64,000 bases of DNA from the NCBI RefSeq assembly GCF_010131535.1, contig NZ_WUBS01000003.1, forward strand, positions 186,001-250,000, written 5' to 3'. A program made the position numbers and the translations under genes. Positions 15,839 to 56,870 of the stretch are shown piece by piece. A model generated the notes under the pieces. The model worked only from the letters and a program-made list of their open reading frames with translations. It ran no database searches and had not been told where the DNA came from. Position 1 is the first letter of the stretch; every line of letters begins with the position of its first letter. The DNA comes from Acerihabitans arboris. GTDB lineage: Bacteria > Pseudomonadota > Gammaproteobacteria > Enterobacterales > Enterobacteriaceae.

Positions 15839-15925
15839 CTAAAGCATTAAGCGCAGATGGCTTTCGACCTCTTCAATACGCCTGCCGGGCACGTCTTCAC
15901 TTCCAGCTTTGTAGCTGTAGGCGAG
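15839..15925 (-). pseudogene. Short coding-like remnant, C-terminal end of an unrecognised protein
   Basis: On the minus strand the frame reads DLAYSYKAGSEDVPGRRIEE and continues to a stop at 15839, with a stop directly before the first residue. Codon use is like the surrounding genes. I do not recognise the family. The rest of 15926-16109 shows nothing I can name. Confidence 0.3.
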
Positions 15926-41916: not shown

Positions 41917-42411
41917 TTATTTAATCCTGGCGGCCGCGTCCCAGATCACATGGGTCATGGCGCTGTCGCCAGGGTCTTTTTTGATTACCGGGGCGCCGCC
42001 GTCCTTAAGCAGGACGTCCACCGTGCGCCGGTAGGCCTCGGGCGTCAGGTAGCCGATACGCGCGGTATCGACATTGGCGATCAGCTTGGCGACGTTTTCC
42101 ATCTGACGCTGCTGAACCTCCGCCGTGGCCGCGCCCGACATATCCTGATCCACCCCGATCTGCGCCGCTTCCGCGGGATTCTTCACCGCTTCCCGCCAGC
42201 CCGGGTAGGTGGCGTGCAGGAACCTGGCCATTTTGGCGACAAACGCCGGGTCCTTCAGTTTCGGTTCAAGCACGTACGGGCCGTCTTCCCGCGTCGAGAC
42301 GCCCTGGTCCTCATACGGGAACGAGATCAGATCGTCTTTTTTCATGCCCGCGTCGATCAGGTTGAGGTTGTCGCGCGTCAGTTCGTCCAGGGCGCCGAAC
42401 GGCTCGTCCAT
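41917..42411 (-). pseudogene. Chimeric remnant: ABC ATPase Walker B fused to NMT1-type substrate-binding protein C-terminus
   Basis: The frame opens with MDEPFGALDELTRDNL, the Walker B/D-loop of an SsuB/TauB-type ATPase, then passes directly into an NMT1-like binding protein C-terminus (DDLISFPYEDQGVSTREDGP, RFLHATYPGWREAVKNPAEA). The lost Walker A, permease and binding-protein N-terminus imply one or more deletions. It is a gene fossil, although the frame is open and might still be translated. Confidence 0.75.
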
Positions 42412-42612: not shown

Positions 42613-42629
42613 CACGCCAAAACGGTGCA
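42613..42629. promoter_or_regulatory. NtrC-like enhancer site, nitrilase operon
   Basis: Read on the minus strand: TGCACC-GTTTT-GGCGTG, against the NtrC consensus TGCACC-N5-GGTGCA. Its centre is 126 bases from the -24 GG at 42747; the equivalent site of the nitrile hydratase operon is 125 bases from its -24 element. Confidence 0.65.
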
Positions 42630-42746
42630 ACGGAGGCGCAAACGCACCGCCGGCGTGAACGCCTTAACGGGGATGGCGGATGGCGCAGGCTTTCGTTAAA
42701 ATTAATTAATTGATATCAAAAGACATTTCACAAGAATTGTTTTTCA

Positions 42747-42760
42747 GGCACGTATATTGC
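42747..42760 (+). promoter_or_regulatory. Sigma-54 -24/-12 promoter, nitrilase operon
   Basis: AGGCACGTATATTGCTT: GG at 42747-42748 and GC at 42759-42760 with the exact 10-base gap of sigma-54 promoters. Transcription should begin near 42772, about 60 bases before the attenuator element. Confidence 0.82.
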
Positions 42761-42834
42761 TTAATTCTTTGCATTGCTCGGCGCCCCGTACACCCCTCTG
42801 TAGCGGAAGGCAGGACGTCATAACACCTAAATCT

Positions 42835-42881
42835 GGCAAAGATGCCCTATCAACCGTAACGGTTGATGGGGCTTTTTTTTT
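42835..42881 (+). promoter_or_regulatory. ANTAR-type attenuator (hexaloop element plus terminator), nitrilase operon
   Basis: GGCAAAGATGCCC (42835-42847) can fold as GGC/GCC closing the six-base loop AAAGAT, with A at position 1 and G at position 4 as ANTAR proteins require. Its 3' arm is also the start of a strong terminator: 44-55 pairs with 61-72 of this 42800 block (12 base pairs), followed by nine T. The folds are mutually exclusive, as in amiE and nas leaders. The same 13 bases precede the nitrile hydratase terminator. A second upstream hexaloop hairpin was not found with confidence. Confidence 0.75.
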
Positions 42882-42900
42882 ACCCAAGGAGCGCGTGAGA

Positions 42901-44613
42901 ATGATCAAAGAACCTGTTTCCGTCGCGGCAATTCAGTTTGAACCCACCCAATTTCGTAAAGAAGACAACATCCTCAGGCTGCTGGCCCTGGCCGGGGAAG
43001 CTGCGTCCAACGGCGCGCGCCTGATCGTCATGCCCGAGATGGGCACCACCGGCTATTGCTGGATGGATCGGGAAGAGGTGGCCGGCTACGTCGAGACGGT
43101 GCCCGGCGCCACCACCGATCGCTTCGGCCTGCTGGCGGCGCGCTATCAATGCTACCTGGTGGTCGGTTTGCCTGAAGTGGACGCGCGCAGCGGCCTGTAT
43201 TACAACAGCGCGGTACTGATAGGCCCCGACGGCGTGATCGGCAAACACCGCAAAACCCATCCGTATATTTCGGAGCCCAAATGGGCGGCGAACGGCGATT
43301 TGGGACATCAGGTCTTCCCTACCCCGCTTGGCAATATCGCGCTGCTGATTTGCATGGACATCCATTTTATCGAAACCGCCCGCCTGGCCGGCTTACAGGA
43401 CGCGGACGTCATTTGCCATATCAGCAACTGGCTGGCCGAGCGCACTCCCGCGCCTTACTGGATTAATCGCGCCTATGAAAACGACTGCTATCTGATTGAA
43501 AGCAATCGCTGGGGACGGGAACGCGGCGTCCAGTTCAGCGGCGGCAGCTGCATTATCGAGCCCAACGGCCATATCCAGTCCTGGCGCGACACCGGCGACG
43601 GCATCGTCTCCGGTCTCCTGCATCCCGGCGCCCAAGGGCGCGGCCTGCTGGCGGAGCGCCGGCCCGAGCTGTACAAGGAATTGATGACCAATACCTTTAT
43701 GTGGAATCCGCTGGATTTCTTCGGCCTGTACGCCGCCAGGCCCCTGCCGGAGGGCAAACGCTCGCATATCGCCGTCGGGCAATTCGAACCCGACGATGAT
43801 ATCAACGTCAATCTCAGCCGCATCGGACAATTGGCCGCCAGGGCAAAGGCGCAGGGCGCGGAGCTGCTGACGCTGCCCGAGCTTTGCCTTACCGGCAAAT
43901 ACCGCGCCCCCGCCAGCGCCATTACCCTGCGGCACGCCTCCGTCGGCGCCCTGATGGATCTGTGCGCCCGACTGCGGCTTTATTTGGTGGCGGGCATGGT
44001 GGAAGACGACGGCGACGGCAACCGCTATAACTCGGCATTGTTGATCGGTCCGGACGGCCTGCCGGGCGTGTATCGCAAAATCCATTTAACCGCGGAAGAC
44101 AAGACCTGGGCCACGCGCGGCAGCGCCTGGAAAACCTTTGATATTCCCTGCGGGCGCATCGGCCTGCTGATCGGCCATGACCTCGATTTCCCCGAGGCGG
44201 GACGGATCCTGGCAATGCGCGGCTGCGATATTATCGCCTGCCCGGCGGCGCTGGATCTGCCGGGGCCGATAGATCATCCCGGCACCAGCGTGCCCCACGA
44301 TTACCCCATTGCCACCGGGGCGTCCCGCCACCACTGGCTGTTAACCCGGGTGCGGGCCGGGGAAAACAATGTCTACCTGAGTTATGCCAATGCCAATCTT
44401 TCGGGGCTGAGCGGTATTTTCGGGCCGGATACCTTTGCCTGGCCCAGGCGCGAGGCGCTGGTCACCGAGGCTCGGGGCCTGGCCGTGCTGGAAATCGATA
44501 CCAGCAACCTGGACTCGGCCTATCCTACCAATGTGGTGCGCCGAAAAGATCTGGTCGCCATGCGCCAGCCCCATTATTACCAGCCGCTGATCCAGGTTGC
44601 CGGCGGCGAATGA
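42901..44613 (+). CDS. Tandem nitrilase-superfamily protein with one active-site-complete and one Cys-less domain
   Basis: Protein of 570 residues, about twice the usual length. Domain 1 (residues 5-260) has the full triad: Glu46 (MPEMGTTGY), Lys118 (HRKTH), Cys151 (LLICMDIHF). Domain 2 (residues 288-565) keeps Glu327 (LPELCLTG) and Lys393 (YRKIHLT) but has Gly425 (LLIGHDLDF) where the nucleophile Cys should be. Domain 1 should hydrolyse a nitrile or amide; domain 2 may be structural or a sensor. AAGGAG precedes ATG 42901; the frame open from 42757 runs through the leader terminator. First gene of an operon with amiC- and amiR-like genes. Confidence 0.87.
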   Translation: MIKEPVSVAAIQFEPTQFRKEDNILRLLALAGEAASNGARLIVMPEMGTTGYCWMDREEVAGYVETVPGATTDRFGLLAARYQCYLVVGLPEVDARSGLYYNSAVLIGPDGVIGKHRKTHPYISEPKWAANGDLGHQVFPTPLGNIALLICMDIHFIETARLAGLQDADVICHISNWLAERTPAPYWINRAYENDCYLIESNRWGRERGVQFSGGSCIIEPNGHIQSWRDTGDGIVSGLLHPGAQGRGLLAERRPELYKELMTNTFMWNPLDFFGLYAARPLPEGKRSHIAVGQFEPDDDINVNLSRIGQLAARAKAQGAELLTLPELCLTGKYRAPASAITLRHASVGALMDLCARLRLYLVAGMVEDDGDGNRYNSALLIGPDGLPGVYRKIHLTAEDKTWATRGSAWKTFDIPCGRIGLLIGHDLDFPEAGRILAMRGCDIIACPAALDLPGPIDHPGTSVPHDYPIATGASRHHWLLTRVRAGENNVYLSYANANLSGLSGIFGPDTFAWPRREALVTEARGLAVLEIDTSNLDSAYPTNVVRRKDLVAMRQPHYYQPLIQVAGGE

Positions 44614-44630
44614 GGTAACACGAGGTGAAT

Positions 44631-45794
44631 ATGTTTTCAGCAGATAATAGCCTGACGCCGGGCGGGAGCCGATCCAAGGCCATCATTCCGGTGGGCGTGC
44701 TCTATTCGGTATCCGGTCATTATGGCGGCATCGGGCGGGAAATGCTTAACGGCATTATGCTGGCCATCGAGGAAGTCAATGCCAGTAAAAGCTTTAACTT
44801 TACCCTGGCGCCGGTCATCTACGATCCCGGCTGCAACCTGGATAACTATTATCGCCATTGCCACGACCTGCTATACCAGCACGGGGTAAAACATATCGTC
44901 GGCTGTTATACCTCCGCCTCGCGCAAGCTGATTTTACCGCTGGTCGAGGGCGCCGACGCCCTGCTTTGGCATAGCGCACGCTACGAGGGTTTTGAAAGCA
45001 GCAACAACGTCATGTACCTGGGCGCCGCGCCTAACCAGCACGTGCTGCCGATGCTCGACTACGTCATCAATCACTATCCGGCCGAGATATACCATGTCGG
45101 CTCTGACTATATTTGGTCGGAAGAGATCGATCGCATCATCCGCGACGCGCTGGACGCCCGGGGCGGCACCCTGGTCCAAAGCCAGTTCCTGGCGCTCGGC
45201 GACACCGGGGTGGAACAGGTCATCCTGGATATTATCCGCCGCCGCCCCCCGGTGGTCATGGTCACGCTGGTCGGCATTTCGGCATACCGTTTTTACCGCG
45301 TCTGGAAAACCATGGAGCAAGAGCATGAATTCCTGCGTTCATCTTCCATCGTGCGGCTCAGCCTGACGCTGTGCGAATCGGAGGTGGCGATGGTGGGCGC
45401 GGACGCGCTGGAGGGATACCTGGTCTCCGCCGTGTATTTCCAAAGTATCGACAACGCGCAGAACCGGCAGTTTATCCAGCGCTATCGCAGCCGCTTCGGC
45501 GAAAACGCCACCACCACGGTGGACGCCGAGGCCGCCTGGATGTGCGGACACTTTTTAGCCAAGGGAATTAACCGGTGCGGCAGCGACGAGACGTCGGCGG
45601 TGCGGGAGGCGGTGTACGCCGAAAGCCTGTCGGCGCCCAACGGCATCACCCGCATCAACCGGGAAAATAACCATGCCAGCCTGACGCCGCGCCTGGCGCG
45701 GCTCGGCAAGGACGGGCGCTTTCATCTCCTTTGGCAGTCCCCCGCCCCGGTAATCCCAGACCCCTGGTTAACCTGGTCCGATTTTTCGTTATAG
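44631..45794 (+). CDS. AmiC-like cytoplasmic inducer-binding protein
   Basis: Protein of 387 residues with the type I periplasmic-binding fold (VGVLYSVSGHYGGIGREMLNG, YIWSEEIDRIIRDAL) but no signal peptide, as in AmiC of the Pseudomonas amidase operon. AmiC binds amides and releases the antiterminator AmiR. Here it probably senses a nitrile or the amide derived from it. GAGG before the ATG at 44631 decides against the GTG at 44625. Twenty bases separate it from the amiR-like gene. Confidence 0.85.
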   Translation: MFSADNSLTPGGSRSKAIIPVGVLYSVSGHYGGIGREMLNGIMLAIEEVNASKSFNFTLAPVIYDPGCNLDNYYRHCHDLLYQHGVKHIVGCYTSASRKLILPLVEGADALLWHSARYEGFESSNNVMYLGAAPNQHVLPMLDYVINHYPAEIYHVGSDYIWSEEIDRIIRDALDARGGTLVQSQFLALGDTGVEQVILDIIRRRPPVVMVTLVGISAYRFYRVWKTMEQEHEFLRSSSIVRLSLTLCESEVAMVGADALEGYLVSAVYFQSIDNAQNRQFIQRYRSRFGENATTTVDAEAAWMCGHFLAKGINRCGSDETSAVREAVYAESLSAPNGITRINRENNHASLTPRLARLGKDGRFHLLWQSPAPVIPDPWLTWSDFSL

Positions 45795-45814
45795 CGAGCA
45801 GCGCGAGGTGTTAA

Positions 45815-46429
45815 GTGCAAGAGGCTAAAAAACGACTGATGGTGCGAGGGTTGAAAATTGCGCTGTTCGGCTGTGCGCCTCGTGACGAAAAGAACCTGCT
45901 GCTGCAGTTTCAGCGTCTCGGCATCCAGGGCGACAGCTTTGCGGATTTCCATGATGACGTGTTCCGCGATCGTTATGACAGCGTGATTTTTGATTCCGAC
46001 AATAGCGTCCTGATCAAACAAATCAGCCAGGGCACGTGGCCGTCATTGCCTAAAATCGCCCTGATGGGACTGGAGACCCCGTCCCGCTTGTCCTGGGTCA
46101 TCGATCAGGAGGTGGACGGCTGGCTGCGCAAGCCGGTAAAGACCGACGGCATTTTATCCACCATCATCCTGGCCCGGCATCACTTTGAACGCCATCAGGC
46201 GCATCTGGACGCGCTCAGGCAACAGGACATTCGCATCCGTTCGCGCCGTTTCCTGTTGTCGGCGCAAATATTATTGATCCAGGAATTCAACTATAGCGAG
46301 CAGCAATCCTATGAATTATTGCGCCGTCTGGCAACCGAACAACAGCAAACGGTGGAGGAATTCTGCATCGTTTTTTTATCGCGCCAACGGGAATGGTTAT
46401 GCCTGCTGAAATCGCGCCATATGCAATAA
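45815..46429 (+). CDS. AmiR-like ANTAR-domain transcription antiterminator
   Basis: Protein of 204 residues: an N-terminal pseudoreceiver-like domain (LKIALFGCAPRDEKN; DSVIFDSDNSVL), a helical linker (about residues 125-150) and a C-terminal ANTAR domain (AQILLIQEFNYSEQQSYELL, RRLATEQQQTVEEFC). ANTAR domains bind paired hexaloop hairpins and prevent terminator formation. Start is GTG at 45815 with GAGG at good spacing. The two GGCAAAGATGCCC leaders in this window are its predicted targets. Confidence 0.88.
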   Translation: MQEAKKRLMVRGLKIALFGCAPRDEKNLLLQFQRLGIQGDSFADFHDDVFRDRYDSVIFDSDNSVLIKQISQGTWPSLPKIALMGLETPSRLSWVIDQEVDGWLRKPVKTDGILSTIILARHHFERHQAHLDALRQQDIRIRSRRFLLSAQILLIQEFNYSEQQSYELLRRLATEQQQTVEEFCIVFLSRQREWLCLLKSRHMQ

Positions 46430-46486
46430 TAGAGGTATTACGCTGCCCTCCCGGCATAGCTCAGCCGGCGGCCGATCGAGGCAGTG

Positions 46487-46503
46487 CGCACCATTTTGGT
46501 GAC
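46487..46503. promoter_or_regulatory. NtrC-like enhancer site, nitrile hydratase operon
   Basis: CGCACC-ATTTT-GGTGAC, against TGCACC-N5-GGTGCA; centred 125 bases before the -24 GG. Confidence 0.7.
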
Positions 46504-46619
46504 CGGCCTGCCCTTAAACGGCACAAGGAAACGGCACGATCGGGACAAGCGGCGATACCGATAATAAAGGTAAAATTTAATAGTCTGTTTTATAACAGTA
46601 AAAATACAAGTCACACATT

Positions 46620-46633
46620 GGCATCCATATTGC
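46620..46633 (+). promoter_or_regulatory. Sigma-54 -24/-12 promoter, nitrile hydratase operon
   Basis: TTGGCATCCATATTGCTT: GG at 46620-46621 and GC at 46632-46633 with a 10-base gap. The -12 region (ATATTGCTTAA) is identical to that of the nitrilase operon. Confidence 0.85.
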
Positions 46634-46723
46634 TTAACAAGATTATCATGTGAATTTTATTTTCCCGACGTCCAGGTCCGTTGATATTCATTATTGGTAG
46701 TGTCATAGAGTAAACATAACGCC

Positions 46724-46771
46724 GGCAAAGATGCCCCCGCGGCTCGCAAGAGTTGCAGGGGCTTTTTTTTT
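46724..46771 (+). promoter_or_regulatory. ANTAR-type attenuator, nitrile hydratase operon
   Basis: GGCAAAGATGCCC (46724-46736) is identical to 42835-42847. Its 3' arm begins the terminator: GCCCC (46733-46737) pairs with GGGGC (46758-46762), with an inner CTC/GAG stem closed by GCAA, followed by nine T. Outside the shared 13 bases, the GTCATA word and the T-run the two leaders differ, so conservation marks the functional element. Confidence 0.77.
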
Positions 46772-46844: not shown

Positions 46845-47456
46845 ATGAGCGATATTCTGGAGCCAACCGCGCCACCCAATATTCCGACGTTGCGGATTAA
46901 AGCCATTCAGTCCTTATTAATTGAAAAAGGCTATCTCAAGGCTGAAGCGGTGGATGAAATCATCGATATCTTTGAACATCGCTTCGGTCCGAAGAACGGC
47001 GCCAGGGTGGTGGCCAAAGCCTGGAGCGATCCGGCCTACAGGCAACGATTGCTGGATGATGCCACCGCGGCCATTGCCGAACTGGGTTTTACCGGGCTGG
47101 AAGGCGCCCACATGTTCGTGGCCGAAAATACCGCGACGGTCCACAACATGGTGGTGTGCACGCTGTGCTCCTGCTATCCATGGCCGACCCTGGGCCTGCC
47201 GCCCACCTGGTACAAAGCGCCGCAGTATCGCTCGCGGGCGGTCATGGAGCCGCGCGCGGTGCTGGAGGAGTTTAACGTGCGGCTGCCGGACAGCGTTGAA
47301 ATCCGGGTGTGGGACAGCAACGCCGAGATCCGCTATATGGTCCTGCCGCTGCGTCCGGCCGGCAGCGAAGGCATGGGCGAGGACGAACTGGCCGCCCTGG
47401 TCAGCCGCGACTCGATGATCGGCACCGCCGTGCTGCCCCCCGTAAGCCAGGCCTGA
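46845..47456 (+). CDS. Nitrile hydratase alpha-type subunit, cobalt type
   Basis: Protein of 203 residues. The metal claw is CTLCSC at residues 105-110; Thr in the second position marks cobalt-type enzymes (iron types have Ser). TARGET-type residues such as [14 protein letters not shown] and [13 protein letters not shown] follow as usual. It hydrates nitriles to amides after oxidation of two Cys to sulfinic/sulfenic forms. ATG at 46845 follows AAGAGGAAAGACA. Because the beta subunit is split, thiocyanate hydrolase (gamma subunit) is an alternative identity. Confidence 0.9.
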
Positions 47457-47483: not shown

Positions 47484-47801
47484 ATGAATTCAATTCACGA
47501 TGTAGGCGGCATGCATAACCTCGGCCCGGTGGCGATCAACCCCGGCGAGCCGGTATTCAAGGCGGAATGGGAAAAGCAGGTTTTTTCCACCATCGGCCTG
47601 TATTTTGCCGGTGGGCTGTGTCCCATCGACGAATTCCGCCACGCCATCGAGGTAATGGATCCCGCGGAATACCTCAGCACGCCCTACTACGTGCACTGGT
47701 ACCACGCGATGGAAAAGCTGGGGATCGAAAACGGATTGTTTACCCGGGAAGAGCTGGAAGACAAGATTCGGCAGTTGGCGCAGCGGGAGAAGGCATCATG
47801 A
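47484..47801 (+). CDS. Nitrile hydratase beta subunit, N-terminal half (separate gene)
   Basis: Protein of 105 residues, starting NSIHDVGGMHNLGPV as full beta subunits do. It has the conserved Arg in EFRHAIEVMDPAEYL that contacts the oxidised Cys ligands, then YYVHWYHAMEKL. A normal beta subunit is roughly 220 residues; this gene ends after the N-terminal domain and overlaps the next by four bases. Equivalent division occurs in thiocyanate hydrolase and toyocamycin nitrile hydratase. Confidence 0.88.
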   Translation: MNSIHDVGGMHNLGPVAINPGEPVFKAEWEKQVFSTIGLYFAGGLCPIDEFRHAIEVMDPAEYLSTPYYVHWYHAMEKLGIENGLFTREELEDKIRQLAQREKAS

Positions 47802-48151
47802 AGATCCTGGAAAAAGAGCAGGTTTACGACGCGGTGAAAACCAACCCGGTCTACGTACGGCCCACCGATCTGCCGATCCGCTTCGCCGCCGGCGATCGGG
47901 TTCAGGCAAAAAACATCCATCCCCAGGGCCATACCCGCCTGCCGCGCTACGTTCGCGGCAAGACCGGCACGGTGGTGCGCCGCCACGGCTCGTTCGTGTT
48001 TCCCGATACTGTTGCCCACGGCAACGGGGAAAAACCTCAGCACGTCTACAGCGTGCGCTTCGAGGCGCGGGAACTGTGGGGCGAGGAGCGCGGGGATAAT
48101 TCCGCCGTCTATCTCGATCTTTGGGATGACTATATCATTCCGGCAACCTGA
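47798..48151 (+). CDS. Nitrile hydratase beta subunit, C-terminal half (separate gene)
   Basis: Protein of 117 residues starting MKILEKEQVYDAV. FAAGDRVQAKNIHPQGHTRL and PRYVRGKTGTVVRRHGSFVF are the SH3-like C-terminal domain of the beta subunit, with the second conserved Arg in YSVRFEARELWG. Its ATG overlaps the stop of the N-terminal half (ATGA), so the two polypeptides are made in coupled fashion. The frame is clean, so this is an ancestral split rather than a recent nonsense mutation. Confidence 0.88.
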   Translation: MKILEKEQVYDAVKTNPVYVRPTDLPIRFAAGDRVQAKNIHPQGHTRLPRYVRGKTGTVVRRHGSFVFPDTVAHGNGEKPQHVYSVRFEARELWGEERGDNSAVYLDLWDDYIIPAT

Positions 48152-48164
48152 GGGGGAGCGCAGC

Positions 48165-48650
48165 ATGACGACGATAACCACATCCACCCCCGCCGCGACG
48201 GCCGGGGACGAGCCGGAAATGGCGTTCGGCGAGCCCTGGCAGGCGGAAGCCTTCGCCACCGCCCTGCAGCTGTCGCGCAACGGACTCTACCGCTGGAGCG
48301 AATGGGTAGAGGTGTTTTCGCGCACCATCAGGGAACGGCCGCAGCGGCCGGACGAAACCTTGGGGGAAGCCTATTATCGCCAGTGGCTGGGCGCGCTGGA
48401 AACGCTGCTGCAGGGCAAATCGCTGCTGTCCGGCGAGGATGTCGACGCGCGCCAGGCATTGTGGCACCTGGCCTATTTGCATACGCCGCATGGACAACCG
48501 GTGTCGCTGCAGCGCGTAGCGCATATCATCGATCCGTGCGCCACCCTGGATCGGGTCGCCGACCCTCATGCGGCGCATCACCATCACGGCCACGCGCATG
48601 GGGGCCGCCCGATCCCCACGCCGATTACGGTGGTTCCCGGAGCAGGCTGA
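48165..48650 (+). CDS. Nitrile hydratase accessory/activator protein with His-rich tail
   Basis: Protein of 161 residues. EPEMAFGEPWQAEAFATALQ and YRWSEWVEVFSRTI match the activator family (P14K-like), which is related to the beta N-terminal domain and delivers cobalt to the alpha subunit. The C-terminus ends in HAAHHHHGHAHGG, a likely metal-binding tail. GAGGGGGAGC precedes ATG 48165, 13 bases after the previous stop. Confidence 0.86.
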   Translation: MTTITTSTPAATAGDEPEMAFGEPWQAEAFATALQLSRNGLYRWSEWVEVFSRTIRERPQRPDETLGEAYYRQWLGALETLLQGKSLLSGEDVDARQALWHLAYLHTPHGQPVSLQRVAHIIDPCATLDRVADPHAAHHHHGHAHGGRPIPTPITVVPGAG

Positions 48651-48787: not shown

Positions 48788-49798
48788 ATGAGTGATTTAT
48801 CGCAGGGCCTTCCCCGGAAGGCCCCGGGCTCCCCTCGGCCCGGAAAAGGCCAACTCCCGGCGTTGCGCGGCGCGGCGTTGGCAATCGTGGTGTATGTGAT
48901 CATGTATCTGCTGTACGGCTGGTCGGAGCCCGGCGCGTTCAGCGCCTACGCCGTCGCCGACCTGGTCAATAACGCCGCCCCGCTGGCGCTGGCCGCCGCC
49001 GGGCAAACGCTGGTGGTGCTGACCCGGGGATTCGATTTATCCCTGGTGGGCGTCATTTCCATTGCCAACGTATTAACCGCCATTGCCCCGTTCGACGGGC
49101 CGGGCGGCGCGCTGTTCAGCCTGCTGCTATGCGTGGGCGCCGGCGCGCTGATCGGCCTGCTCAACGGTTACCTGGTGGCCTATCGCGGCATCCAGAGCAT
49201 CGCCGCGACGCTTGGCACCATGATTATCGGCCAGGGTATCGCCCTGCTCCTGCTGCCGGTGCCCGGCGGCTCGGTATCGGAGTTTATCAGCGACGGCCTG
49301 ACGGGCATGCTGTGGCAAATCCTGCCGGTATCAGCCCTGGTGCTGGCGTTTTTTGCCCTGGTCTGGCTGTTTATCAAGCGTACCGACACCGGCGTCGCCT
49401 TTTATGCGGTGGGCGCCGATGAAACCTCCGCCGGGTTGTCCGGCATCGCCGTCAAGTGGATGCGCTGCAAGGCGTTTATCCTGGCCGGCTGTTTCTACGG
49501 CGCGGCGGGATTTATGCTTAGCGCCCAAACCGCCACCGGCGATCCCAACTCGGGCCTGCCCTTTCTGCTGCTCTCCTTCGCCTCGGTAGCGCTGGGCGGC
49601 ACCAGCCTCGGCGGCGGGCGCGGCGGCGCGTTCGGTTCGATGGTGGGCGCGGCGGTGCTGCTGTTAATGCAAAAAATGCTGTTCGCCATTGGCGTCTCCT
49701 CGTTCTATATCGGCTTTTTCCAGGGCGTGCTGCTGGTGCTGTCCATCCTATGCGAGAAGGTGCTTAACCGTTCGCCACGCACAGGAGCGCATTCATGA
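48788..49798 (+). CDS. RbsC-type ABC transporter permease 1 of the nitrile hydratase operon
   Basis: Inner-membrane protein of 336 residues. LAAAGQTLVVLTRGFDLSLVG and AVGADETSAGLSGI are the permease family motifs; SVALGGTSLGGGRGG lies near the end. The first 30 residues are basic and Pro/Gly-rich. AGGAAG precedes ATG 48788. It starts 137 bases after the activator and is four-base-overlapped with a second permease, so the channel is probably heteromeric. Confidence 0.87.
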   Translation: MSDLSQGLPRKAPGSPRPGKGQLPALRGAALAIVVYVIMYLLYGWSEPGAFSAYAVADLVNNAAPLALAAAGQTLVVLTRGFDLSLVGVISIANVLTAIAPFDGPGGALFSLLLCVGAGALIGLLNGYLVAYRGIQSIAATLGTMIIGQGIALLLLPVPGGSVSEFISDGLTGMLWQILPVSALVLAFFALVWLFIKRTDTGVAFYAVGADETSAGLSGIAVKWMRCKAFILAGCFYGAAGFMLSAQTATGDPNSGLPFLLLSFASVALGGTSLGGGRGGAFGSMVGAAVLLLMQKMLFAIGVSSFYIGFFQGVLLVLSILCEKVLNRSPRTGAHS

Positions 49799-50829
49799 GC
49801 AAAATCTCCCTGGCGGCTCCGGAGGCCGGGCGTATCGACCGGCGCGCCAACGGCCGGATGAGTCCCGAGTCGGTCGCGCCGCTATTGTTGCTGGGCCTGA
49901 CGGTGGTGATGATCCTGGCCTCCCGCCTGATCAGCCCGTCCCTGGGATCCTGGTCGCAGGTGTTGATGATAGTGACCCTGGGCTCCTTCCTGCTGGTGGT
50001 GTCGTTCGGGCAGGGGCTGGTGGTCCTGTCCGGCGGCATGGATCTGTCGGTGGCGTCGCTGTTTATGTACGGCGGCGTGATGTCGGCGGGCGCGATAGGC
50101 GCCGCCGGCGGCAATATTGCCTATATGCTGCCGTTAATCCTGCTGTCCGCCGCGGCCATCGGCGCGCTCAGCGGCCTGGGGATCACATTGCTGCGCATCC
50201 CGCCGTTTATCATGACCATGGGCACCGGCATCATCGTCGCGTCACTGGCGCTCGGCGCCACCGGCGGCAGCACGCTCGGCGCGTCGCCCAAACTGTTGGC
50301 GGATATCGTCAAGGGCAGCGTATCCGGCATACCCTGCATCGTTCTGTTCACCCTGGTTTTCAGCGCGCTGGGGATCGTGATCCAGACGCGCACGGTGTTC
50401 GGACGCAACCTGTACGCGCTGGGAGGCAGCCCGGGCGCGGCCAGGGTCGGCGGCATCCCGGTCGGCGCGGCCACCGTGGCCGCCTATGCCCTGAGCGGGC
50501 TGTGCGCGGCCCTGGGCGGCGCGCTGCTTACCGGCTATTCCGACGGCGCCACCCTGCGCATGGGCGACCCTTACCTGCTGCCCTCCATTGCCGCGGTGGT
50601 GGTGGGCGGTTCCTCGATACTGGGCGGCAAAGGCACTTTTATCGGCACCATCGCCGGGTCGCTGTTTTTAACGACCGTGGACTCGGTGATTGCCGCCACC
50701 AGCCTCGGCCAGGGCTGGCGGCTGATTGTTTCCGGCGCGATTATTACCGTCGCCCTGTTATGCCAGTCCGGCTCGGCGAATTCACTCATCTTATTATCAG
50801 GAAAGACCCGGGCACTGTTTAAACGTTAA
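49795..50829 (+). CDS. RbsC-type ABC transporter permease 2 of the nitrile hydratase operon
   Basis: Inner-membrane protein of 344 residues. VVSFGQGLVVLSGGMDLSVAS and ALGGSPGAARVGGIPV are the family motifs, with AAVVVGGSSILGGKGTF near the C-terminus. The ATG overlaps the stop of permease 1. Most sugar importers of this class use one permease gene; a pair suggests a distinct subgroup. Confidence 0.88.
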   Translation: MSKISLAAPEAGRIDRRANGRMSPESVAPLLLLGLTVVMILASRLISPSLGSWSQVLMIVTLGSFLLVVSFGQGLVVLSGGMDLSVASLFMYGGVMSAGAIGAAGGNIAYMLPLILLSAAAIGALSGLGITLLRIPPFIMTMGTGIIVASLALGATGGSTLGASPKLLADIVKGSVSGIPCIVLFTLVFSALGIVIQTRTVFGRNLYALGGSPGAARVGGIPVGAATVAAYALSGLCAALGGALLTGYSDGATLRMGDPYLLPSIAAVVVGGSSILGGKGTFIGTIAGSLFLTTVDSVIAATSLGQGWRLIVSGAIITVALLCQSGSANSLILLSGKTRALFKR

Positions 50830-50878
50830 TTAACACCAAACATTTGGAATCAACTTAACAAACCGATCGGGAGTTAAT

Positions 50879-52102
50879 ATGTCAATGCAAACACGTCTTA
50901 AAAGATGTGCGGCCGCGGCCGTCGTTTTAATGGGATTATCAGGTTATTTTTCAGCGGCGCAGGCGGAAGACGCGCCGAAAAAATATAAAATATTCCTGAG
51001 CCTGAGCTATAGCGGAAATAACTGGATGAGCGAGACGGCAAATATTATCAAGTCGCTGGCGAAAACGCCGCCCTATGACAAAATGGTGGATTTGCAGGAG
51101 GTTATTTCCGGTACCGATCCGCAGGCGCAGATATCGGCTTATGAAAGTATGATTGCCGCCAAAGCGGACGGAATCATCAGTTTCCCGATATCGCCCACCG
51201 CCTTGAACCGCGTGATCCGGCGCGGCTGCGGCCAGGGCGTCAAATTTTTCATGTTTGATTCCACGGTAACGGAAAAATGCGCCTACAACATCAGTTATAT
51301 TTCAGCCGGCGCCGGGGAAAACATGGCCCAGCAGTTAGTGAATGAACTGGGCGGCAAAGGAAAGATATTTATGAATCGCGGCGTGCCCGGCACCTCGGTG
51401 GATAAACGCCATTTTGACGGCGCCATGCATATATTTAGCCAGTATCCGGGGATCTCGGTGGTCTCGGAATACTATGGCTATTGGGACGACCGCATCAGCC
51501 AACGTGAAACCGCCAAGGCCCTGGCGGCCCATCCGGACGTGGACGGCATTTGGTCCGAACTGGGCGAAGCCGGCGTGCTGAACGCCGTAGCCGACCGTAA
51601 AGGCCGGATGATGCCCATCATGGGGGAAAATATGAACGGCTTTCGTCTTGGTTTCCTCAATGCCGATTACCGCAAGCGCGGCCTGAGCGGCGTGTCCGCT
51701 GGTTCGCCCCCCGCCACCGCCGGCTACGCGTTCAAGCTGATGATGGAGGTCTTGACCGGCAAACGGAAACTGGAGCCGGCCAATATCGAGTATCCGCTGC
51801 CATGGGTCACCGCCGACCAGATGAAACTGTGCCAGGGCGGCGTCATTGCCGACGGTTGTAATGTGTTCGCGGCCAACCTGGTGCCGGAAGGTTTCTCGAC
51901 CGAGATCTATCACCCGGCATTCCTGCCGGAAATCACCCTGGATTCGGCGCTCAAGGGCGTGCCCACGCCGGGAACGACCATCCAGCCATTGCCAGAGGAA
52001 ATAACCAGGGCCGCGGATGAGCCAGGCATCAACTGCGAACGCTGCCAGGCGGCGCCGGATCAGTACAAGCTGACCAAGGTCCAGCCCACGGTTAAACCAT
52101 AA
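50879..52102 (+). CDS. Periplasmic substrate-binding protein of the nitrile hydratase operon
   Basis: Protein of 407 residues with a signal peptide (LKRCAAAAVVLMGLSGYFSA, cleavage near AQA-ED). The Peripla_BP_4 fold begins YKIFLSLSYSGNNWMSET. It is longer than RbsB-type proteins, with Cys pairs near the C-terminus (MKLCQGGVIADGC, INCERC) that could form disulfides. GGGAG precedes the ATG. As part of an operon with nitrile hydratase it may bind a nitrile, amide or nitrile-containing glycoside; unproven. Confidence 0.85.
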   Translation: MSMQTRLKRCAAAAVVLMGLSGYFSAAQAEDAPKKYKIFLSLSYSGNNWMSETANIIKSLAKTPPYDKMVDLQEVISGTDPQAQISAYESMIAAKADGIISFPISPTALNRVIRRGCGQGVKFFMFDSTVTEKCAYNISYISAGAGENMAQQLVNELGGKGKIFMNRGVPGTSVDKRHFDGAMHIFSQYPGISVVSEYYGYWDDRISQRETAKALAAHPDVDGIWSELGEAGVLNAVADRKGRMMPIMGENMNGFRLGFLNADYRKRGLSGVSAGSPPATAGYAFKLMMEVLTGKRKLEPANIEYPLPWVTADQMKLCQGGVIADGCNVFAANLVPEGFSTEIYHPAFLPEITLDSALKGVPTPGTTIQPLPEEITRAADEPGINCERCQAAPDQYKLTKVQPTVKP

Positions 52103-52124
52103 AGCACGCCGGGCCTCGCCCCGG

Positions 52125-52172
52125 CGTGCCGGGGAGAGACCATACCAATGCCGGGGAGACCGTGCCAACGCC
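52125..52172 (+). repeat. Short tandem repeat in the SBP-ATPase spacer
   Basis: TGCCGGGGAGAGACCATACCAA is followed directly by the variant ATGCCGGGGAGACCGTGCCAA. Together with the 42-base repeat in the next gene, it shows local duplication in this 220-base spacer. Confidence 0.5.
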
Positions 52173-52318
52173 GGACTTAACCGTGGAGCGTTAAACACAG
52201 AGCGCGCCAGCTCCGCACTTAATACCGGCGTGTTGCAGCCGGGTGGCGGCAAGGTTGGCCAGCAACTCATACTATTCTACCGATGGCCGCGCGCCATCGG
52301 GACAGGAGATCGCAATTC

Positions 52319-52402
52319 ATGCAACCATCCTTAACTCAACCGACATCCGGCGCGCGAGGCATGCAGCCATCCCTGCCTCAACCGGTATCAGGCACGCAAG
52401 GC
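52319..52402 (+). repeat. 42-base tandem duplication in the ATPase N-terminus
   Basis: Two 42-base units (52319-52360 and 52361-52402), each beginning ATGCARCCATCC and ending with GGC, encode MQPSLTQPTSGARG and MQPSLPQPVSGTQG. Each unit begins with ATG, as does the canonical domain start at 52403. Confidence 0.8.
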
Positions 52403-53893
52403 ATGCGCCTTTCCTCGGTTTCAAAATCCTATGGCGCCACCGTGGCGCTGGAGAGCGTCTCATTGACTATCGAACCCGGACAGGTACAGGCTATACTCGG
52501 GGAAAACGGCGCCGGGAAATCAACGCTGGTAAAAATTCTCTCGGGAGTGGTGACGCCCAATACCGGCGCCATGATCCTGGAGGGCCGGGACTATGCCCCG
52601 CGTTCACTGCTCCAGGCTCGTCATATCGGCGTCAGCACCGCGTTCCAGGAGCTCAGCCTGCTGCCCAATCTCAGCGTCGCCCAGAATTTTTTCCTGCCGA
52701 GTTCCCTCAAACAACAGTTTTTTTTCACCTCGCCAAAACAGATGGCGCGCCGCGCCGAAGCCATTTTAGCCGATCACGACGTACAGGATATTTCGCCACA
52801 TGCCAACGTTGAAACGCTCTCCCTGGCCGCGCGCCAGCGGGTGGAAATCGTTCGCGCCATGCACTACCGCCCCCGGCTGCTGCTGCTGGACGAGCCCACC
52901 GGCGCGCTGGCCGACGTAGACTGGCTGTTCCGCCTGGTGCGCCGGCTCACCGCCGCGGGCACCGCCGTGCTCTATATCTCGCACCGGCTGGCGGAAATCC
53001 GGGAAATCGCCAGCCATGCCATGGTATTGCGCAGCGGTAAAACCATCTCGACGGTGGAGCTAAAACAGGTGACCAACGCCGACATTTTCGAGATGATGGT
53101 GGGACGCCGGGCGACGCGGGATCGGCCGCGCGGGCGCGCCGAGCCGTTGCACCCGCAAAGCGCCGCGCTTACGGCCAACGATTTGGGCGGCCAGAATTTC
53201 AGCGATATCTCTTTTGAACTGCGGCGGGGGGAAATTCTCGGCGTGGCGGGCCTGGAGGGCCAGGGACAGCGGGAATTGTTCCGCACCCTGGCGGGCCTGA
53301 TGCGTCATAGCGCGGGACAAATGCTGCTGCGCGACCGCGAGGTGATATTGCGCAGCCCCCGCGATGCGCTGCGTAAATACGGCGGCATTGCCTTTGTGCC
53401 GGAGGATCGCAAAAGCGAAGGCATTTTCCCTACCCTGTCGGCCGGCGCCAATATTACCCAATCCATGCTGCATCGGTTTAGCCGGTTCGGGCTTATCCGC
53501 CGGGACAAGGAGCGCCGGGCGGTCGGGCGCGTGGCGCCGCAGGTGGAGCTGGGCGAGCGGTATTTATCTTTTAAAATCAGCGCGCTCTCGGGCGGCAACC
53601 AGCAAAAGGCCTTGATTGCCCGCGCCCTGCTGACCGGCGCCAGCACGCTGCTGCTGTTTGATCCCACGCGCGGGGTGGATGTGGGCACCAAGGAGGTGAT
53701 CTACCAGGCCATTAAGGCGTTCGTGGACCAAGGCGGCGCGGTCATGATCTACTCCACGGATCTGGCCGAGCTGCAAACGTTGGTCGATCGGTGCCTGGTT
53801 ATGTATCGTGGCCGTATCCTGGCGGATTTGCCGCGCGACAATCTGGATGAAGGCGAGATGATCGGGCTGATGACGGGCAACGCCGCCGGATAA
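52319..53893 (+). CDS. RbsA-type two-domain ABC ATPase of the nitrile hydratase operon
   Basis: Protein of 524 residues. Domain 1: Walker A GENGAGKS, signature LSLAARQRVEI, Walker B LLLLDEPTGAL. Domain 2: Walker A degenerate (GLEGQGQR), signature LSGGNQQKALIARAL, Walker B LLLFDPTRGVDVG, with Asp-Pro instead of Asp-Glu, as common in domain 2 of this class. ACAGGAG precedes ATG 52319. The first 28 residues are two copies of a 14-residue unit (MQPSL-QP-SG-G), before the usual start at MRLSSVSKSYG. Confidence 0.88.
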   Translation: MQPSLTQPTSGARGMQPSLPQPVSGTQGMRLSSVSKSYGATVALESVSLTIEPGQVQAILGENGAGKSTLVKILSGVVTPNTGAMILEGRDYAPRSLLQARHIGVSTAFQELSLLPNLSVAQNFFLPSSLKQQFFFTSPKQMARRAEAILADHDVQDISPHANVETLSLAARQRVEIVRAMHYRPRLLLLDEPTGALADVDWLFRLVRRLTAAGTAVLYISHRLAEIREIASHAMVLRSGKTISTVELKQVTNADIFEMMVGRRATRDRPRGRAEPLHPQSAALTANDLGGQNFSDISFELRRGEILGVAGLEGQGQRELFRTLAGLMRHSAGQMLLRDREVILRSPRDALRKYGGIAFVPEDRKSEGIFPTLSAGANITQSMLHRFSRFGLIRRDKERRAVGRVAPQVELGERYLSFKISALSGGNQQKALIARALLTGASTLLLFDPTRGVDVGTKEVIYQAIKAFVDQGGAVMIYSTDLAELQTLVDRCLVMYRGRILADLPRDNLDEGEMIGLMTGNAAG

Positions 53894-53978: not shown

Positions 53979-54803
53979 ATGCATAATACGCCCATGAGTA
54001 ATGATATAACATCACAATCAAGCCTGAGCGCCCCGCTGCTTGAGCTGCGGGGAATTACCGCCGGAGCCCATGGCTGCGCGGCGTTGCTGCGGGGCGTGAG
54101 CCTGACGCTTAACCATCATCAATGCCTGGCGGTGATCGGCCCCAACGGCAGCGGCAAATCCACGCTGCTGCGCGCCGTTATCGGCGAAATCGGGCTGGCG
54201 TCGGGGCACATCCTGCTCGACGGCCGGCCGCTGGGCAGCTTATCCAGGCAGGCGCGCGCGCGGAGCATCGCGCTGCTGGCGCAAAACGATATGCCCGACC
54301 TGCGGTTGACGGTGGCCGAATATGTCGGGCTGGGGCGGTTGCCGCACTATGCGGATTTTAGCGCGCGGCAACACGAGGAGATCGTTGACCAGGCAATAGA
54401 CGACACCGGTTTACCCACGCTGCGCCGCCGGCTGCTGGGCACCCTGTCGGGCGGCGAGCTTCAGCGGGCCGGGCTGGCGCGCGCGTTCGCGCAAACGCCC
54501 CGGGTGTTGCTGCTTGATGAGCCGACCAATCATCTCGATCCGCTGGCCCGGGCCCAGTTGCTCGGCCTGGTGCGCGCGCGGGGCATCGCCACCATCGCCG
54601 TGCTGCACGATCTTACGCTGATTGAGTCCTTTGCCGGCCGCGTGGCGGTGCTGCAACACGGACGCCTGGTGTGCTGCGATACGCCGGAACGGGCGCTGGT
54701 ATCGTCTTGTATCGAACCGGTGTTCGGCATGCGCAGTTTTACGGTGTCGCACCCCGCCACCGGACAACCATTGAAAATTTTCGAAGCATCGTTACGCGCG
54801 TGA
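53979..54803 (+). CDS. FecE/BtuD-type ABC transporter ATPase
   Basis: Protein of 274 residues. Walker A GPNGSGKSTLLRAVIGEI, signature LSGGELQRAGLARAF, Walker B VLLLDEPTNHLDP, H-loop AVLHDLTL: the pattern of metallophore/cobalamin importers. ATG 53979 is used, with ATG 53994 as an alternative. It follows the RbsA-type gene by 85 bases and precedes a binding protein and FecCD permease, so it belongs to a separate three-gene importer in the same run of genes. Confidence 0.87.
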   Translation: MHNTPMSNDITSQSSLSAPLLELRGITAGAHGCAALLRGVSLTLNHHQCLAVIGPNGSGKSTLLRAVIGEIGLASGHILLDGRPLGSLSRQARARSIALLAQNDMPDLRLTVAEYVGLGRLPHYADFSARQHEEIVDQAIDDTGLPTLRRRLLGTLSGGELQRAGLARAFAQTPRVLLLDEPTNHLDPLARAQLLGLVRARGIATIAVLHDLTLIESFAGRVAVLQHGRLVCCDTPERALVSSCIEPVFGMRSFTVSHPATGQPLKIFEASLRA

Positions 54804-54832
54804 CGGCCTTTTTGACCTGAGGACAGCTATGT

Positions 54833-55801
54833 ATGAAGACGTATGCGAAAAAATCTCTGCTTGCGGTGGTGTTGAGCCTGCTGGCGACGGCGGCGCAGGC
54901 CTCGGGTTTCCCGGTTACGGTCTCCAGCTGCGGACAGCCGCTGACCTTTACGCAGGCCCCGCAGCGTGCGGTAATCCATGATTTGAATATGACGGAAATG
55001 GCGTTTGCCCTGGCATTGCAACCGCATATCCGCGGCGTGACGGGTATTACCGGCTGGTATAAGGCGACGCCGGAATTCACCCGCCAGCTGGGCGGCATCC
55101 CGGAACTGGCGCCTAAATACCCTACCCTGGAAAATCTGCTGGCGGTCAATCCCGATTTCTTTTTTGCCGGCTGGAATTACGGTATGAAGGTAGGCGGCGA
55201 GGTGACGCCGCAATCGCTGGCCCGTTTCGGCGTGCCGACGCTGGTGTTGACCGAAAGCTGCGTGCATATCGGCCGGCAAAAAGAAAAGGCCACCATGGCG
55301 CTGTTGTATGGGGATATGCTGAACCTGGGCAAGATTTTCGGCCAGGCGGAGCGCGCGCAGGCGCTTATCGACGGCTGGAAAGCGCAGATCGCCGCGCTGC
55401 GGCAAAAAATCGGCCAGCGTCCGCCGTTAAAGGTATTCGTGTATGATTCGGGCGAGGATAAACCATTTACCAGCGGTCGTTATGCCATGCCTACCGCGCT
55501 GATTGAGGCCGCGGGCGGGCGCAATGTGATGGATACGCTGGACACCAACTGGGGCACCACCTCCTGGGAGAGCGTGGCCACCGCCGGACCGGATCTGATC
55601 ATCCTGCTGGACTACCAGACGGGCGGCGGCGCGCAGACCCTGCAGGACTTCCTCGAGCGCCATCCCCTGATGAAACACACCCCGGCGGTGATGAACCGCC
55701 GTTACCTGAAGTTGCAATATGCGCAGCTGACGCCGGGACCGGCCAACATCGAGGCCATCAACCAACTGGCCCGGGCGCTGTATCCGGACAGTTTCCAGTG
55801 A
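54833..55801 (+). CDS. FecB/BtuF-type periplasmic substrate-binding protein
   Basis: Protein of 322 residues with signal peptide KKSLLAVVLSLLATAAQASG. The type III fold is shown by PQRAVIHDLNMTEMAFALAL, TLENLLAVNPDFFFAGW and the long connecting helix with KIFGQAERAQALIDGWKAQI. YDSGEDKPFTSGRYAMPTAL is distinctive. Ligand: a metal chelate, corrinoid or related compound. The neighbouring cobalt-type nitrile hydratase makes a cobalt compound the natural guess (inference). Confidence 0.85.
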   Translation: MKTYAKKSLLAVVLSLLATAAQASGFPVTVSSCGQPLTFTQAPQRAVIHDLNMTEMAFALALQPHIRGVTGITGWYKATPEFTRQLGGIPELAPKYPTLENLLAVNPDFFFAGWNYGMKVGGEVTPQSLARFGVPTLVLTESCVHIGRQKEKATMALLYGDMLNLGKIFGQAERAQALIDGWKAQIAALRQKIGQRPPLKVFVYDSGEDKPFTSGRYAMPTALIEAAGGRNVMDTLDTNWGTTSWESVATAGPDLIILLDYQTGGGAQTLQDFLERHPLMKHTPAVMNRRYLKLQYAQLTPGPANIEAINQLARALYPDSFQ

Positions 55802-55814
55802 GAAATGGCGTTTT

Positions 55815-56870
55815 ATGAGAGAAAGCGTTTTATGTGGGATGGAATGTGATAAGGGACAGCGTTTCATGAGGCAACGGGGCCGTGGATTTGCGTTAATCTT
55901 GACGGCGGCATTGCTGGCCCTGGTGCTGATGGGCATGGCCAACGTGGTGTTTGGCAGTACCTCGCTCACGCCGGATGAAATACTGTCGGCCCTGGGGTTG
56001 GGGACGGGACGGGCCGAGCCGATGGTGGCGCGGATCATACTGGAGATCCGCCTGCCCAGGAGCCTGCTGGCGATGTTGACCGGCGCCGGCCTCGCCATGG
56101 TCGGCGCGTTATTGCAAACCACCACCCGCAACGATCTGGCCGATCCCTTTTTGTTCGGGCTCTCCTCCGGCGCCTCCGCCGGCGCGGTGGCCGTAATGAC
56201 CCGCCTGGGCGATCGGCTGGGTGACTGGGCATTGCCGGTGGCGGCCTTCGTTGGCGGCGTAGTGTCGGCGCTGGCCGTCATCTTGCTATTTTTACAGCAG
56301 AAATCGCGCGGCGCGGCGCGGCTGGTGCTCTCCGGCCTGGCGGTATCGTTCCTGTTCGGCGCCCTCACCAACTTCCTGGTGTTCTCGGGCGACCAGCGGG
56401 CGGCCAGTTCCATCCTGTTCTGGTCACTGGGCGGGCTTGGGCTGGCCCGTTGGGACAATATCGGCTTTGCGCTGGCGGGGCTATGCCTGCTGGGCGCGCT
56501 TGCCGCCCTGCGCTGGCGCTCGCTGGACGCCCTGCTGGCCGGGGAACAGAGCGCGGTGTCGATGGGCATCAACGTCACGGTATTGCGCATCGAAGTATTT
56601 TTATGCTGCGCGTTCGCCACGGCGCTGTTTGTCGCCCTGACCGGCGTCATCGGGTTTATCGGCCTGATGGTGCCGCACCTGGCAAGGCCGCTGGCGGGCG
56701 TGCGCCACCGGTGTTTATTGCCGCTGGTGGCGGTGCTGGGCGCATTGCTGATGTCCGCGGGCGATTTGCTCAGCCGCTGCCTGCTGGCGCCCCAGGAACT
56801 GCCTATCGGCATTATTACCGCCGGCGTCGGCGCGGTATTTGTGCTGGCCCTGCTGATCAGGAAAGACTAA
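55815..56870 (+). CDS. FecCD/BtuC-type ABC transporter permease
   Basis: Inner-membrane protein of up to 351 residues with about 10 TM segments. RLPRSLLAMLTGAGLAMVGA and GFIGLMVPHLARPLAG are the family motifs, and LMSAGDLLSR precedes the last segments. The true start may be ATG 55866 (MRQRGRG), which has GGGACAG upstream; the first 17 residues from 55815 are atypical. Completes the three-gene importer. Confidence 0.86.
   Translation: MRESVLCGMECDKGQRFMRQRGRGFALILTAALLALVLMGMANVVFGSTSLTPDEILSALGLGTGRAEPMVARIILEIRLPRSLLAMLTGAGLAMVGALLQTTTRNDLADPFLFGLSSGASAGAVAVMTRLGDRLGDWALPVAAFVGGVVSALAVILLFLQQKSRGAARLVLSGLAVSFLFGALTNFLVFSGDQRAASSILFWSLGGLGLARWDNIGFALAGLCLLGALAALRWRSLDALLAGEQSAVSMGINVTVLRIEVFLCCAFATALFVALTGVIGFIGLMVPHLARPLAGVRHRCLLPLVAVLGALLMSAGDLLSRCLLAPQELPIGIITAGVGAVFVLALLIRKD

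Follow-up and report, generated by a model that had tools for sequence, protein, structure and literature searches.

Probable double gating of CN-hydrolase and nitrile hydratase operons by sigma-54 promoters and AmiC/AmiR-controlled terminators in Acerihabitans arboris

Introduction

How could two neighbouring operons be switched together by one sensor and one antiterminator? The question is raised by a stretch of Acerihabitans arboris DNA of 64,000 nucleotides (assembly GCF_010131535.1, contig NZ_WUBS01000003.1, positions 186,001–250,000 of the forward strand), termed the window below. The first operon, nit-amiC-amiR, encodes a tandem CN-hydrolase with an AmiC-like sensor and an AmiR-like antiterminator, and the second encodes a nitrile hydratase (NHase). 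Both operons are likely gated twice, by initiation at a sigma-54 promoter, probably with NtrC, and by terminators under AmiC/AmiR control; this reading is given a probability of about 0.8.

Leaders and their conservation

Along the window, a dyad, a promoter and the 13-mer GGCAAAGATGCCC with its nine-T terminator precede the genes of the tandem CN-hydrolase, AmiC and AmiR, and a second dyad, promoter, 13-mer and terminator lead to the NHase genes and a transporter (Table 1). An earlier, sequence-only reading had described matching sigma-54-type promoters, 13-mers and nine-T terminators before the nit and NHase genes, and had placed AmiC- and AmiR-like genes between the two leaders. All of these are found in the sequence and in the gene order, and ATATTGCTTAA is common to both promoters. 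The same spacing that it reported holds for the upstream NtrC-like sites (126 and 125 bases), but not for the leaders, in which the -24 GG and the 13-mer are separated by 88 and 104 bases.

In known ANTAR systems, a dimer of the protein requires a pair of hexaloop hairpins, and the second of the pair overlaps the terminator (PMC3369931). In both window leaders, GGCAAAGATGCCC folds as GGC-AAAGAU-GCC, and its 3′ arm doubles as the 5′ arm of the terminator, so that hairpin and terminator exclude each other. The short stem, the hexaloop with A1 and G4 and the overlap with the terminator stem are those of such a second hairpin (P2). The window has three instances of the hexaloop-plus-terminator composite where 0.28 are expected, two in the leaders and one within a gene. 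This third match (hexaloop and T-run, 29127) was rejected, as was a match at 15900 of locus L058, since both lie within genes. The bare 12-mer has eight copies in the genome; it was rejected as a genome-wide regulon marker because the six copies outside the leaders all lie within long open reading frames.

The terminator stem covaries (score 0.352 versus 0.203 when shuffled, 0/500), and 90.7% of its cells are paired, against at most 56% when it is slid. The GGC and GCC of the hairpin are unchanged in 10 of 10 aligned leaders; as they never vary, the evidence for the hairpin is its invariance rather than covariation.

Three further genomes have full nit-amiC-amiR-NHase clusters, those of Brenneria alni (locus L031) and of two members of the window's own genus, G399 (L056) and G397 (L058). 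From nit to the transporter, the B. alni proteins are 77–93% identical to those of the window. A sigma-54 promoter, a hexaloop and a terminator are present in all eight leaders of the four genomes. Conservation of the 13-mer in related genomes, on which the sequence-only reading had been staked, was confirmed: it is exact in seven leaders, and the eighth, GGCAAAGTTGCCC, has one mismatch. The full arrangement looks rare, since scanning about 85,000 species genomes turned up no further NHase-bearing locus of this kind. G399 carries a second, more distant NHase cluster (L057, G399:C1:3728000-3747000), with an alpha subunit 58% identical and its own CN-hydrolase relative nearby; no ANTAR-type leader was seen at this cluster.

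It is highly improbable that AmiR controls the first leader only and that transcription from upstream runs through a decayed copy of the leader in front of the NHase genes. Such read-through would suit the tandem arrangement of the operons on one strand, and the amiR reading frame of G399 is split, but in all four genomes the NHase leader has retained a promoter, a hexaloop and a terminator of its own despite divergence of the remainder of the leader. The split G399 amiR extends over two reading frames (L056, 10604-11193) and is either a pseudogene or a sequencing error.

Regulatory proteins and the first hairpin

The AmiC- and AmiR-like identities proposed from the sequence were upheld. AmiC, encoded next to amiR, matches Pseudomonas aeruginosa AmiC (PDB 1pea) with an E-value of 3e-67. 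The AmiR profile matches AmiR of the same pair of known structure (1qo0, 5e-20) and also EutV, and the AmiR_N domain scores 36.5 bits (cut-off 27). The tyrosine that stacks on G4 (EutV Tyr164) is kept in AmiR of the window lineage, where Pseudomonas aeruginosa AmiR has a histidine.

Several observations weigh against control as proposed. The ANTAR domain scores 23.7 bits in the window, under the Pfam cut-off of 27.3 (28.2 bits in G397), and the counterpart of EutV Met172 is a threonine in the window lineage. A first hexaloop hairpin (P1, with A1 and G4) is not above chance, at two of the eight leaders against 1.3 expected, and neither strict nor relaxed searches gave anything consistent: the nit leader has none and the NHase leader a single weak candidate 21 bases away. 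The NtrC-like sites match at 8–10 of 12 positions over the eight leaders, each being weak singly. Recurring WAGYG words noticed upstream by eye are not claimed, as their spacing varies and they form no consistent stem.

The pair of hexaloops expected of a known ANTAR target was thus not recovered. A covariance-model search, one of the checks that the sequence-only reading had proposed, returned no ANTAR-type family for the leaders in Rfam at a low threshold, but chance matches only. Because P1 is not found above chance, the leaders are described as working like dual-hexaloop ANTAR leaders and are not classed as members.

The terminators could instead be constitutive attenuators, with GGCAAAGAUGCCC merely an A-rich terminator foot and AmiR acting elsewhere. 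Predicted folds favour the terminator, AAAGA could form base pairs with the run of U, and the leaders have no P1 partner. This explanation is nevertheless very unlikely, as termination does not require the GGC six bases 5′ of GCC, yet it is unchanged across 15 leaders and turns up again with distant AmiRs.

Both hairpins are required in the EutV and NasR systems (PMC3369931, PMC7496416), and Met172 is essential for RNA binding by EutV (PMC8934654); a later structure suggests that one hexaloop may be the minimal ANTAR target (PMC8934654). It is tentatively suggested that AmiR might antiterminate with a single hexaloop, P1 having been dropped from the leaders and the methionine plug lost from the ANTAR domain. 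This would be a natural one-hairpin ANTAR switch, a possibility left open by the EutV structure paper.

Promoters

The sequence-only reading had proposed an NtrC/sigma-54 start. Its sigma-54 part stands, with such promoters kept before both operons in the four genomes and with rpoN and ntrC present in the A. arboris genome; its NtrC sites are only suggestive. Taken alone, sigma-54-type matches are not significant, since the window has 6 where about 7 are expected under a first-order Markov model, and neither are the NtrC-like dyads (P = 0.08 for nit, 0.05 for NHase). As single-site tests are not significant, the argument rests on conservation.

The leaders could be controlled by AmiR while the sigma-54 promoters are driven by an enhancer-binding protein other than NtrC. 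The genome codes for several further sigma-54 activators, the window dyads match at just 9 of 12 positions, and the best site before the G397 NHase leader reaches only 8/12. This alternative is judged unlikely, as sites of 9–10/12 lie upstream of the other seven of the eight leaders and sites of 10–11/12 upstream of some Pantoea/Kosakonia leaders, the nit-to-NHase gene set contains no activator gene, and nitrogen acquisition is the role of the genes.

Proposed mechanism

With AmiC/AmiR and probably NtrC as regulators, the two neighbouring operons, nit-amiC-amiR and NHase with its transporter, would each be gated twice. Transcription would start at the sigma-54 promoter, probably activated by NtrC under nitrogen shortage, and elongation would then run into the terminator that closes a leader of roughly 110–130 bases. 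With AmiR bound by AmiC, the terminator would form. Inducer bound to AmiC would free AmiR, which would then hold the hexaloop hairpin GGC-AAAGAU-GCC; because the 5′ arm of the terminator stem is taken up by this hairpin, RNA polymerase would read on. One AmiR would serve both leaders, and the position of amiC and amiR downstream of the first leader would make the system self-regulating. NHase would turn a nitrile into an amide of the inducer type.

Wider AmiC/AmiR family

Relatives of the tandem CN-hydrolase that are accompanied by AmiC and AmiR occur in two further settings. In Pantoea and Kosakonia they follow an NCS1-type cytosine/purine permease; in Klebsiella, Yersinia and other enterobacteria they are grouped with urea-type ATP-binding cassette (ABC) transporter genes. 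An annotated plasmid (L021) has a formamidase-family gene beside the urea-type transporter setting.

The Pantoea/Kosakonia leaders combine sigma-54 promoters with GGC-GAAGAA-GCC, and every one of the seven has a further hexaloop hairpin, CAGGC-RCCGWA-GYCTG, upstream. Between the upstream and terminator hexaloops of these leaders (L018, L032-L034, L036, L037, L059) lies a second conserved hairpin, GTGGC-N5-GCCAC, with a variable loop. The methionine is kept in the Pantoea AmiRs, which go with a clear P1, and is absent from the window lineage, which has no clear P1; this apparent correlation, drawn from two lineages, is only a lead.

The Brenneria salicis leader has a sigma-70-like TTGACA-N18-TATAGT instead, with GGC-AAUAGA-GCC. 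A GGC-N6-GCC at the terminator foot beside AmiC/AmiR genes recurs in Pantoea/Kosakonia, Yersinia/Klebsiella/Brenneria, Pollutimonas, Shinella, a Sneathiellales metagenome-assembled genome and two further gammaproteobacteria; in the distant leaders (from Pollutimonas onwards) G4 is not kept in every case. From this spread, set against sigma-54 promoters in some leaders, the antitermination layer looks old and shared, and the sigma-54 layer limited to part of the family.

Enzymes and inducer

The first domain of the CN-hydrolase has the Glu, Lys and Cys residues. In the second half (43756-44613), the catalytic Cys is Gly in 10 of 10 aligned homologues and the Lys is often lost too; the consistent replacement of Cys marks this half as a conserved fused pseudoenzyme domain. 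The 'nitrilase' label is uncertain, as the protein reaches no nitrilase family cut-off (best NCBIfam model nitrile_Arch, 254.6 bits, cut-off 500). The protein joins an active domain to a catalytically dead one and may be an amidase.

The NHase alpha subunit scores 299 bits with TIGR01323 (cut-off 249.9), and the thiocyanate hydrolase model stays under its cut-off. Its CTLCSC motif is taken to be of the cobalt type. The beta subunit (47484-48151) is encoded by two genes overlapping by one base, and two separate matches are also found in L031, L056 and L058; a split beta arrangement is known from toyocamycin nitrile hydratase and thiocyanate hydrolase. A Fec-type ABC importer (53979-56870) is encoded after the NHase operon, and its first gene follows in B. 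alni too. This importer could supply cobalt or corrinoid to a cobalt-type NHase.

AmiC differs from that of P. aeruginosa at positions 104, 106, 107 and 152, which we take, on the basis of the AmiC literature, to be pocket positions. The compared positions are alike in NHase-carrying loci and in Pantoea/Kosakonia loci without NHase. Because of this likeness, and because NHase-less homologues adjoin amide or nucleobase-like transport genes, we infer an amide-type compound that the CN-hydrolase handles, and not a nitrile, as the most likely shared inducer, with NHase feeding the pathway. Some Rhodococcus NHases are induced by the amide product through an AmiC-like regulator.

Comparison with known systems

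The closest parallels lie in four systems. AmiC/AmiR and the amiE leader of P. aeruginosa have a homologous sensor and antiterminator, genes for amide or nitrogen substrates and a short-stem hexaloop at the terminator base (PMC3369931). The window differs in its sigma-54-type promoters, two leaders per AmiR, NHase as a target, divergent ANTAR domain and altered AmiC positions. Klebsiella oxytoca nasF/NasR likewise combines Ntr activation in nitrogen shortage with substrate-driven ANTAR antitermination (PMC5424462), but NasR contains its sensor as a NIT domain in the same protein, where AmiC is separate here, and P1 as well as P2 is present in the nasF leader (PMC7496416), unlike in the window leaders. 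In Enterococcus faecalis, one ANTAR protein, EutV, similarly serves several terminators of one pathway through G4 hexaloops, but is controlled by phosphorylation, requires both hexaloops and depends on Met172 (PMC8934654). The plasmid ami operons of Klebsiella and relatives also contain amiC and amiR and serve nitrogen acquisition (PMC13209695), and a relative of the tandem CN-hydrolase is encoded on the related plasmid L021; these operons have no NHase, and related chromosomal leaders have GGC-AAUAGA-GCC, with a sigma-70-like start in one read closely.

Given the nasF precedent, the principle of a two-layer switch is not new. NHase as its target may be: a literature search that covered subscription journals thinly found no earlier report of NHase with ANTAR, NtrC or antitermination. 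The sequence-only reading keeps its outline, and overstated its novelty and its closeness to the ANTAR RNA consensus. AmiC/AmiR antitermination would be extended to an industrially used enzyme, with NHase production predicted under nitrogen shortage in the presence of an amide-like inducer. The B. alni and Pantoea/Kosakonia homologues offer a natural series, in which P1 is unrecognisable or clear, the Met is missing or kept and the start is of the sigma-54 or the sigma-70-like type. The chief use of the system lies here, in testing by natural variation if one hexaloop is enough for an ANTAR protein or two are required.

Other features of the window

Table 1. Coordinates of the regulatory elements and genes in the window
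Feature	Position	Strand	Remarks
NtrC-like dyad, nit promoter	42613-42629	+	CACGCCAAAACGGTGCA, 9/12 to TGCACC-N5-GGTGCA, centre 126 before GG
Sigma-54-type promoter, nit	42746-42761	+	AGGCACGTATATTGCT, GG-N10-GC, expected start near 42772
13-mer GGCAAAGATGCCC, nit leader	42835-42847	+	
Hexaloop hairpin GGC-AAAGAU-GCC, P2-like putative antiterminator, nit leader	42835-42846	+	
Intrinsic terminator, nit leader	42844-42881	+	stem 42844-42872, T9 42873-42881, GCC arm common with hexaloop hairpin
Tandem CN-hydrolase ('nitrilase'), 570 amino acids	42901-44613	+	domain 1 E-K-C, domain 2 Cys to Gly
AmiC-like ligand sensor	44625-45794	+	
AmiR-like antiterminator	45815-46429	+	AmiR_N and divergent ANTAR domain
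NtrC-like dyad, NHase promoter	46487-46503	+	CGCACCATTTTGGTGAC, 9/12, centre 125 before GG
Sigma-54-type promoter, NHase operon	46619-46634	+	TGGCATCCATATTGCT, expected start near 46645
13-mer GGCAAAGATGCCC, NHase leader	46724-46736	+	
Hexaloop hairpin GGC-AAAGAU-GCC, NHase leader	46724-46735	+	
Intrinsic terminator, NHase leader	46733-46771	+	stem 46733-46762, T9 46763-46771
NHase alpha subunit	46845-47456	+	motif VCTLCSC, presumably cobalt type
NHase beta, N-terminal half, own gene	47484-47801	+	
NHase beta, C-terminal half, own gene	47801-48151	+	
NHase accessory/activator protein	48159-48650	+	
Sugar-type ABC transporter (two permeases, binding protein, ATPase)	48788-53893	+	gene order kept in L031 and L056

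The sugar-type ABC transporter probably belongs to the NHase operon. On the minus strand, a frame at 41917-42411 resembles an ABC ATPase fragment (MDEPFGALDELTR) fused to the end of a binding protein, has no Pfam match and is probably a deletion remnant.

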